Assembly (NCBI GenBank): GCA_028822575.1
Contig: JAPKDN010000047.1
Coordinates: forward strand, 1-11,854
Source of the DNA: Alphaproteobacteria bacterium
Lineage (GTDB): Bacteria; Pseudomonadota; Alphaproteobacteria; Thalassobaculales; Thalassobaculaceae
Reading direction: 5' to 3'
DNA length: 11,854 nt
A program made the position numbers and the translations under genes. The notes beneath the pieces are model-generated. The model saw only the letters and a list, made by a program, of their open reading frames with translations, was not told where the DNA came from and searched no databases. Below are positions 6,121 to 8,463 of this stretch, piece by piece (position 1 is the stretch's first letter; each line of letters starts with the position of its first letter).

Positions 6121-8463
6121 ATGAGTAAAACCGAAGGTGAGGGCGCCGCGCTTGCGGGCGTTCGGGTTCTGGAGCTAGGTGGTGGTGTCGCCGGCGCCTA
6201 TTGCGCGAAACTTTTCGCCGATATGGGGGCGACGGTCTGGCGGATTGAGCCGATGGCGGGTGATGCGTTGGCCGAAACTTCGCTGGACCCTGTCGAGCCG
6301 ATGACGCGTGGTCTGTATCTCGACTACCTGAACGCCGGCAAGATCCCGCTTACCGGCATCGCGGTCGCGGCCACCTTCGACATCCTGATCCTGGGCGAGG
6401 CCGCGGATCGACCGACCGATCTTGCGGCACCGAGCACCGCCGTTCTGGATATCAGCTGGTTCGGCGCCGACGGGCCCTACGCGGATTGGCAAGGCACGGA
6501 TCTGATCGTCCAATCTCTCGCCGGACTGGTGCAGCCGGTTGGCCCCATCGATGGCCCACCGCAATTCCCTGGTGAACATCAGGCGACCTTGATCGCCGGC
6601 TTATCCGCTTATTGCGCCGGTGTTGCCGCGTTGATCGGCGGCCGGCCCACCGCGCCGCGCCATTTCGAGGTGAGCATTCTCGAGGCCATCCTGATCAATG
6701 CCGACTTGCAGATCTGTCAGACAGCGTTGATGGCCGCGCCGGTGCCGAGGATGGGCGTGAACCGGTTCGTGCCGACTTGTCCAGTCAGCATTCACAAATG
6801 TAAGACTGGCTGGATTGGGATCACGCCGCTGACACCCGCCCAGTGGCAGGCCTTTTGCCGGATCATCGAATTGCCAGATTTCGCGAACGATCCGGAATTG
6901 CTACCTCAGCGCACCCGGTTTCCTCATGCCGAACGTATGGAAACAGCCTTCAACACAAGGTTTCCACTTAAGACCGCCGAGGAATGGGCGGCCATGGGGC
7001 GTGAGCACAAAGTGCCGATGGTGGTGGTGCCGGACGCGCTCGGCATTCTGGACCACCCGATCTTCAATGCCCGCGAGTCCCTGGCGAACTTCGAGAGTGA
7101 GGGGGAAACCTATCGGGTCCCGCGCACGCCCTTCCGTCTGGAGAAAACGCCGTCGCGTCTGGTTCTGGAAAAGCCAAGCGGTAAGGCGGTTCTTGAACCC
7201 CTAGATGAGGTTGGTACTTCCGACACGCCGTTGACTGGAATTCGGGTGGCGGACTTCTCCATGGGTTGGGCCGGGCCCTTGACCACGCGCATGCTGGCAG
7301 ATTTCGGCGCCGAGGTGATCAAGATCGAGGCCGGACGCTATCCTGACTGGTGGCGCGCCGTGGAATGGACGCCTGAGGCGATCGCCGCCAAGCAATACGA
7401 GAAAAGCGAGCGCTTTTCCATGGTCAACCGGGGCAAGCAGAGTGTCAGCCTCGACCTTACCAATCCCGACGGGATGGCGTTGGCCAAGGATTTGGCTGGA
7501 CATTGCGATTTGGTGGTCGAGAACCAGGCCGCCGGCGTGATGTCACGTCTCGGCCTTGGGTACGAGCATCTGTCGGAAGGCCGTGCAGATCTGATCATGC
7601 TTTCCATGTCTGCCTTTGGCGCGGGCAATGCCTGGTCCGACACAAGAGCCTATGGCTCGGTACTGGAGCAGGGTTCCGGCATCCCAAGCTTCGCCGGACG
7701 CCCGGAGTGGCCACCGACCATGGCGCATATCGCCTATGGTGACCCAATTGGTGGCATTCATGGTGCCGCCTCGTTACTGACCGCGTTGTTCCATCGCCGC
7801 CGGACTGGTGTTGGCCAGTGGATCAATAACACCCAGATCGAGGCGATGCTGCCGTTCACCACACCCGCGCTGCTGATCCGTCAAGCGACGGGGCATGAGC
7901 CGCTCCGTCGCGGTAACCGTCACCCGTCTCTGGTGCCGCACGGGGTATTCCCGGCCCAAGGAGAAGACCGCTGGATTGCGATCGCGGTGACGGGCATCGA
8001 GGGGTGGCGGGGTTTGGCTCGGGCGATTGGTCGGGATGACTGGGCCGAGGATGAGGGTCTGGCGCCACCCAAGGCACGACGCCGGATCGAGGACGAGATC
8101 GAGGTGGCGATTAGTGCCTGGACAGCGGGCCAGGATGGGGCGGGTGCCGCGGAAGCGTTGCAGCTCGCCGGTGTGGCCGCTGCGCCGCTCCATTATATGG
8201 ACCAGGTAACCGAAGACCGGCATCTGCGGGCCCGGTCGTTCTTTTATGAGATCGAGCGACTTCATACCGGCCATCAATGGCAGACCGGATTGCCGCTACG
8301 CTTGGATGGCGAACGTTATCCGATGCGAGGGCTGGCGCCATTACTGGGCGGCGATAGCGAGCGGGTGTTAGTCGGGTTGTTGGGGATCGAGGATGCCGTG
8401 TATCGGCGATTGATCGATGAAGGTGTGGTCAGCTTCGCGCCAACGCAATTGCGCGGTAGTTGA
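6121..8463 (+). CDS. Double-domain family III CoA-transferase (two fused CaiB/BaiF domains)
   Basis: 780-residue cytoplasmic protein, about twice the normal length of a family III CoA-transferase (near 400). Domain 1 covers about residues 10-365: LAGVRVLELG at 11-20 and GPYADWQGTDLIVQSLAGL at 118-136. Domain 2 covers about 370-775: LTGIRVADFSMGWAGP at 371-386, NRGKQSVSLDL at 436-446, RLGLGYEHL at 476-484. The catalytic Asp of this family (Asp169 in formyl-CoA transferase) lies in an aD..aG motif. In domain 2 it is kept as Asp541 (YGDPIGG). In domain 1 the aligned residue is Thr156 (QATLIAG), and that domain also lacks much of the middle region. So probably only the second half is catalytic. 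DddD, the DMSP CoA-transferase/lyase, has the same plan, but none of the usual ddd neighbours is here, so I do not name it dddD. The ribosome site is weak (GGAAAA about five bases upstream). Confidence 0.93.
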   Translation: MSKTEGEGAALAGVRVLELGGGVAGAYCAKLFADMGATVWRIEPMAGDALAETSLDPVEPMTRGLYLDYLNAGKIPLTGIAVAATFDILILGEAADRPTDLAAPSTAVLDISWFGADGPYADWQGTDLIVQSLAGLVQPVGPIDGPPQFPGEHQATLIAGLSAYCAGVAALIGGRPTAPRHFEVSILEAILINADLQICQTALMAAPVPRMGVNRFVPTCPVSIHKCKTGWIGITPLTPAQWQAFCRIIELPDFANDPELLPQRTRFPHAERMETAFNTRFPLKTAEEWAAMGREHKVPMVVVPDALGILDHPIFNARESLANFESEGETYRVPRTPFRLEKTPSRLVLEKPSGKAVLEPLDEVGTSDTPLTGIRVADFSMGWAGPLTTRMLADFGAEVIKIEAGRYPDWWRAVEWTPEAIAAKQYEKSERFSMVNRGKQSVSLDLTNPDGMALAKDLAGHCDLVVENQAAGVMSRLGLGYEHLSEGRADLIMLSMSAFGAGNAWSDTRAYGSVLEQGSGIPSFAGRPEWPPTMAHIAYGDPIGGIHGAASLLTALFHRRRTGVGQWINNTQIEAMLPFTTPALLIRQATGHEPLRRGNRHPSLVPHGVFPAQGEDRWIAIAVTGIEGWRGLARAIGRDDWAEDEGLAPPKARRRIEDEIEVAISAWTAGQDGAGAAEALQLAGVAAAPLHYMDQVTEDRHLRARSFFYEIERLHTGHQWQTGLPLRLDGERYPMRGLAPLLGGDSERVLVGLLGIEDAVYRRLIDEGVVSFAPTQLRGS

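Follow-up and report, generated by a model that had tools for sequence, protein, structure and literature searches.

A fused double class III CoA-transferase with one predicted catalytic aspartate, likely of the BbsEF type

In class III coenzyme A (CoA)-transferases, a catalytic aspartate is first acylated, next carries CoA, and finally passes this CoA to the acceptor. Succinyl-CoA:(R)-benzylsuccinate CoA-transferase, BbsEF (PDB codes: 9fn0, 9fol and 9fun), combines one aspartate-bearing class III unit, BbsF, with one that lacks the aspartate, BbsE. The last step of the benzylsuccinate pathway is performed by the thiolase BbsAB (PMC10818641). A second point of comparison is DddD, a CoA-transferase/lyase that releases dimethyl sulfide from dimethylsulfoniopropionate (DMSP); the DddD of E. 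acroporae has two CaiB domains (PMC7174347). CaiB-type proteins in environmental genomes can come to be linked to DMSP through DddD as their best named match, as for SAR202 (PMC5395668). Here, we describe an 11,854-nucleotide stretch from an alphaproteobacterium (contig JAPKDN010000047.1; the window), in which the open reading frame 6121..8463 encodes a double class III CoA-transferase of 780 residues.

We suggest that this protein is likely a BbsEF-type pseudo-heterodimer fused into one chain. As judged from sequence comparison, Asp541 in the second domain would be its only catalytic aspartate, and the aspartate-less first domain would be a structural partner. The mechanism that we propose would begin with an attack of Asp541 on an acyl-CoA donor, which for BbsEF is succinyl-CoA. 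The aspartyl anhydride formed in this way would then give way to a thioester of Asp541 with CoA. The acceptor carboxylate would form a new anhydride, and CoA would be handed back to the acceptor. There would be one active site per chain, with domain 1 filling the place of a second active subunit in a dimer-like body. For this transferase, we infer both the activity and the donor.

Two domains and one catalytic position

The reading frame lies on the plus strand and runs from ATG to TGA. PF02515 matches the protein with 489.8 bits against a cut-off of 23.3, in three stretches of which 371-745 is the best, and the catalytic Asp541 is present; both features place it in the class III family. No NCBIfam model rises above its own cut-off, either for the 780-residue chain or for one of its halves. 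Residues 1-355 alone are matched by NCBIfam class III models, every one below its cut-off. The reading frame, PF02515 and these matches to residues 1-355 bear out the initial annotation, which had described two CaiB/BaiF domains in one 780-residue chain. Domain 1 (residues 1-355; 6121..7185, plus strand) is aspartate-less, shortened and E-subunit-like, as assigned from the NCBIfam matches, the tree and an AlphaFold2 model. Domain 2 (residues 371-771; 7231..8433, plus strand) is F-subunit-like and is the predicted catalytic half. Its best match in both sequence and fold is the BbsF chain of 9fn0/9fol, at 31-32% identity.

Asp541 (codon GAC, 7741..7743, plus strand), the predicted nucleophile, aligns with the catalytic aspartates of E. 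coli Frc (residue 169), YfdE and CaiB. Its counterpart in BbsF is Asp178, an assignment taken from the PDB title of 9fol. Frc and YfdE resemble the window protein in fold and in this aspartate, but they are single-domain proteins, each with an Asp of its own. The matching position in domain 1 is Thr156 (ACC, 6586..6588, plus strand). We followed both positions in two sets of relatives. The first set consists of the window protein and 111 homologues of at least 700 residues out of 120 listed, from a search with 1220 matches among 7995 candidates scored. Of these 112 proteins, 111 carry Asp and one carries Asn at site 541, and site 156 is Thr in 61, Ala in 34, Ser in 15, Gly in one and Ile in one. 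The second set comes from a genome scan in which 139 stretches encode a relative, and comprises the window and the best 80 of the 139 loci. Site 541 is Asp in all 81 of these rows, and site 156 is Gly in 56, Thr in 14, Ala in 8 and Ser in 3. Thus, the Asp541/Thr156 assignment made earlier stands, and the pattern is conserved in relatives; an intact catalytic Asp in domain 1, for which a check had been proposed, is seen in 0/112 and 0/81 sequences. The missing part of the middle region of domain 1 was also described correctly: the spacing from K74 to F114 in domain 1 is 40 residues, and that from K439 to F499 in domain 2 is 60. The latter segment holds the motif ENQAAG, and domain 1 has no similar motif at that place.

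These observations bear on the question of whether domain 1 could be a second catalytic domain (a hydratase, a lyase or racemase-like) acting after CoA transfer. Modelled separately with AlphaFold2, it is predicted to be well folded (predicted local distance difference test score 88, predicted template modelling score 0.84), and it has conserved residues of its own, e.g., Q154, which is Gln in 80 of the 112 aligned proteins and His in the other 32. However, the region matching the ENQAAG stretch is shortened, site 156 drifts among Thr, Ala, Ser and Gly in a way unlike a catalytic position, and BbsE, with which domain 1 groups, also lacks the Asp at the aligned site. Nothing that we found speaks for domain 1 acting as a lyase or hydratase, so the initial idea of a fused transferase-lyase or transferase-hydratase gains no ground here, and we consider a second catalytic domain unlikely.

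Kinship with the subunits of BbsEF and with unfused pairs

In the tree, domain 2 groups with BbsF (support 100/99, and 100/99 again without the site columns), and domain 1 groups with BbsE (99/96, and 98/91 without these columns). The 17 double proteins sampled outside DddD likewise have halves that cluster with the paired subunits of benzylsuccinate-type transferases. Thus, a double CaiB layout by itself does not mean DddD. The likeness to BbsEF is also one of composition, a class III unit that carries the Asp being paired with one that lacks it, of the nucleophile (Asp541 corresponding to BbsF Asp178), and of the thiolase-like and OB-fold genes nearby in the window. The differences are that BbsEF consists of two separate subunits whereas the window protein is one fused 780-residue chain, that its domain 1 is shortened, and that no further bbs-like genes are recognised around it. 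Within the window, bbsG, bbsH and bbsCD do not stand beside the transferase; only the thiolase-like and OB-fold genes do, and their scores against the BbsB and BbsA models of NCBIfam are 126 and 30 bits, against cut-offs of 750 and 250. We found no paper on a fused BbsEF-type transferase, a search that says little for subscription journals, which it covers poorly.

The division between the halves also exists as separate genes. A search with domain 1 alone gave seven stand-alone proteins of 362-407 residues (P0246-P0250, P0252 and P0253), which match it at 32-36% identity over 94-95%; in each of them, Gln occupies the catalytic place. At a Sulfitobacter locus (L007), two overlapping single-domain genes lie downstream of a fused copy, the first (L007a) with Gln and the second (L007b) with Asp at the catalytic site. 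Albimonas pacifica (G412, the genome of locus L009) has a similar pair, L104a with Gln and L104b with Asp, besides its fused copy. In the tree, both pairs are close neighbours of the fused halves. Such pairs were found in both of the genomes inspected for one, out of three genomes searched, the third being a Bradyrhizobium; genes in unannotated loci were called by our own script. In a census of 248 genomes of one family, an E-like gene at an E-value of 1e-70 was found only in the starting genome. Fused and unfused versions occur, even in one genome, and the domain 1 site could be altered while the catalytic half stays as it is; this offers a clear way to ask why an inactive half has been retained.

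Some of the data would fit a common class III CoA-transferase, of the formate/oxalate or glutarate kind, that was duplicated in place and has no special link to BbsEF. The NCBIfam models that come first are those for mesaconate, glutarate and formyl-CoA enzymes, none of them near its cut-off; every class III enzyme shares the fold; and domain 1 has better matches than BbsE. Against this, the two halves are not sisters in the trees, each going with a different BbsEF subunit, and the unfused gene pairs show the same division. We regard in-place duplication as highly improbable.

Several observations weigh against the fused BbsEF-type assignment itself. A phmmer search with domain 1 puts BbsE well under other CaiB proteins (35.6 vs 79 bits), and in the fold ranking of the domain 1 model the BbsE chains come only at places 27, 28 and 30. 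We discarded the fold as proof of an E-like domain 1: the model matches all class III enzymes alike, so it speaks neither for nor against E-likeness. A stand-alone protein that keeps the Asp, P0255, is placed among the first-half/E-like rows. In the same groups are the double protein L090, whose first domain has an Asp, and the double proteins L089 and one from Rhodococcus, with Glu at the first-domain site. Two more points come from the genes around the transferase. The four-gene cassette to which it belongs occurs only in the window and in one of the 80 loci (L001). On plasmids, six other relatives of the PrpD gene (45-53% identical), taken from 15 of 549 records listed in a collection with an incomplete gene table, have no annotated class III CoA-transferase within 7-8 kb. 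As a separate observation, the double CaiB protein L084 also has Glu at the first-domain catalytic place. L090, L089 and L084 are possibly two-site or intermediate forms.

Distance from DddD

As the DddD reference, we used the double-CaiB reading frame of plasmid pNGR234b of Sinorhizobium fredii NGR234, which is not a biochemically ratified sequence. NGR234 is among the strains reported to carry dddD (PMC3338564). Two proteins named DddD by their source records, P0181 and P0182, are 73-74% identical to it and are likewise not biochemically ratified. At the catalytic place, NGR234 DddD carries Ser in its first domain and Asp in its second. Thus, the layout analogy drawn in the initial annotation is sound: both proteins have two CaiB domains per chain, with the Asp only in the second.

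A diverged DddD, with CoA-transferase and lyase activity on DMSP or a closely similar compound, would account for this layout. It also draws on the approximately unbiased (AU) test, which rejected neither the broad union of DddD domain 2 with every F-like row (p 0.438) nor that of DddD domain 1 with every E-like row (p 0.315). The DddD and BbsEF arrangements may therefore go back to one ancient split and thus share a very old origin. However, an exclusive grouping of the window subfamily with DddD was rejected for each half (p-AU 0.0019 for domain 1 and 0.0056 for domain 2). Long branches separate the three DddD pairs from the other rows in the trees of single domains, and the window protein lies outside the DddD clade; the placement firmly inside verified DddD, which had been named as a check, was not obtained with these three pairs. 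Identity to the NGR234 protein and P0182 is 27-31% over parts only, and the chains are not collinear end to end. The best stretch against NGR234 DddD pairs window domain 2 with DddD domain 1 (31% over 217 residues), while domain 2 against domain 2 gives 27% over 295 residues. These values and the length of 780 residues fall short of the DddD limits used in PMC9327192, which as given there are at least 40% identity to ratified DddD and at least 800 residues. In addition, a Pfam scan of nine window genes revealed no BCCT transporter, no alcohol or aldehyde dehydrogenase, and neither dddB/C nor dddA/C, in agreement with the earlier statement that the locus lies outside a ddd cluster. We reject a close diverged DddD on the low identity, the non-collinearity and the AU tests on both halves, and we give the reading as a diverged DddD very little credence. 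The initial annotation had left a choice between another acid and a diverged DMSP enzyme. Its doubt about DMSP was justified, the close diverged DddD falls away, and the nearer relatives, the BbsEF-type subunits, were absent from its candidates.

Five other double CaiB proteins were tried as DddD references and rejected. The plasmid candidates have no ddd-like set, by annotation for L081 and by Pfam for L085 and L083 (the latter on two genes). In two gammaproteobacterial genomes, L090 and L088 have no ddd-like set by eye from the gene calls. L081, L085 and L090 fall outside DddD in the tree, and L083 and L088 were left out of it.

Neighbouring genes and plasmid relatives

The neighbours named in the initial annotation are recovered by Pfam. 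Upstream of the transferase are an epoxide-hydrolase-like alpha/beta hydrolase (3222..4097), an MmgE/PrpD family protein (4151..5521; PF03972 and PF19305) and a VOC protein of the glyoxalase fold (5651..6070; PF00903), all on the plus strand. The hydrolase carries the motifs HGWP and GHDWGG, and its best solved match is the soluble epoxide hydrolase 7ac0 (243 bits). The best solved matches of the MmgE/PrpD protein are iminodisuccinate epimerase (145 bits) and Bacillus subtilis IRG1 (126 bits), and the VOC protein has no match among solved structures at an E-value of 0.001. Downstream, also on the plus strand, are a thiolase-like gene (8776..9930; PF22691), whose link to the transferase is uncertain, and 4 bases past it a Zn-ribbon/OB-fold gene of the DUF35/ChsH2 type (9935..10339; PF12172 and PF01796). 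Pfam further recognises TctA at 1-1482. A transporter-like protein is encoded at 1531-2985 on the minus strand; the L-lactate permease model matches only residues 296-472 of its 484.

The nearest genome locus, L001, is from an alphaproteobacterial metagenome-assembled genome (MAG), and its transferase is 75% identical to that of the window. The hydrolase (90%), MmgE/PrpD (76%) and VOC (81%) genes precede the transferase in the same order, with gaps of 2, 32 and 41 bases, compared with 53, 129 and 50 in the window. A gap of 312 bases separates the transferase from the thiolase gene in the window, and the thiolase and OB-fold genes were not found in L001. We rejected these two as fixed partners: a thiolase relative occurs in two of the 80 genome loci (L006 and L011) and an OB-fold relative in one (L006). 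Among five plasmid loci, both have relatives on a Variovorax plasmid, and the thiolase has one on a Paraburkholderia plasmid. The MmgE/PrpD gene, present in only one of the 80 loci, was likewise rejected as a fixed partner of the whole transferase family. No promoter- or terminator-like site was seen in 8300-8900, which says little. Other family members have different neighbours, namely a fused biotin-dependent carboxylase (L007), a carboxyl-transferase gene (L004), and an amidohydrolase with an ABC transporter gene (L021); therefore, the family probably serves several acids.

For the window protein, the epoxide-hydrolase-like and MmgE/PrpD neighbours suggest that the predicted acceptor is likely a dicarboxylic acid. 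This guess was reached from the kinship with BbsF, the substrates of MmgE/PrpD enzymes and the TctA gene, which point to it weakly. A wider proposal is that the design of an active half and a dead half, as in DddD, evolved once more and independently, out of the BbsEF line, giving an unstudied family of single-chain pseudo-heterodimeric CoA-transferases. Here, an epoxide would be opened, and the dicarboxylate resulting from this would be worked on by the MmgE/PrpD enzyme, loaded with CoA and cleaved by the BbsAB-like thiolase. We put this forward tentatively, as a scenario that is more doubtful than probable.

Plasmid 3 of Variovorax sp. SRS16 encodes an uncharacterised double CoA-transferase, WP_162571376, about 30% identical to that of the window. 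Around it are an MmgE/PrpD gene 52% identical to that of the window, an E-like/F-like pair, and thiolase (37%) and OB-fold (39%) relatives of the window genes. This neighbourhood resembles that of the window in joining a double transferase to MmgE/PrpD, thiolase and OB-fold genes. In contrast to the window, its PrpD gene belongs to a set of lactonase, short-chain dehydrogenase/reductase (SDR) and oxidoreductase genes that recurs on five further plasmids, where no such transferase is annotated nearby. Close to another double transferase of this Variovorax plasmid there is again an MmgE/PrpD gene (31%). Five of the six other plasmid PrpD relatives adjoin lactonase-like, SDR-like and oxidoreductase genes.

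Some further observations concern these loci. At L007 (5509-15283), the unfused pair lies directly downstream of the fused transferase, and the biotin-dependent carboxylase, of 1130 residues, is upstream on the other strand. CaiB-type query matches number 71, 54 and 56 in the alphaproteobacterial MAGs G002, G004 and G005 (of L002, L004 and L005); for comparison, the L001 genome has 30 and the L003 genome 4. By annotation, the recurrent plasmid set (L107-L111) consists of an N-acylhomoserine lactonase-like or metallo-beta-lactamase protein, an SDR, an oxidoreductase and MmgE/PrpD; in L111, the SDR and MmgE/PrpD places are annotated as hypothetical, and four of the five sets include a carboxymuconolactone decarboxylase. 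Variovorax sp. SRS16 is an isolate from linuron-contaminated soil. In the region 240000-286000 of its plasmid 3 (L106), each of the two double CoA-transferases lies near an MmgE/PrpD gene, and a BbsE-like/BbsF-like pair, a thiolase, an OB-fold gene, an SDR and a hydratase are also present, so that the region looks like a benzylsuccinate-type beta-oxidation set.
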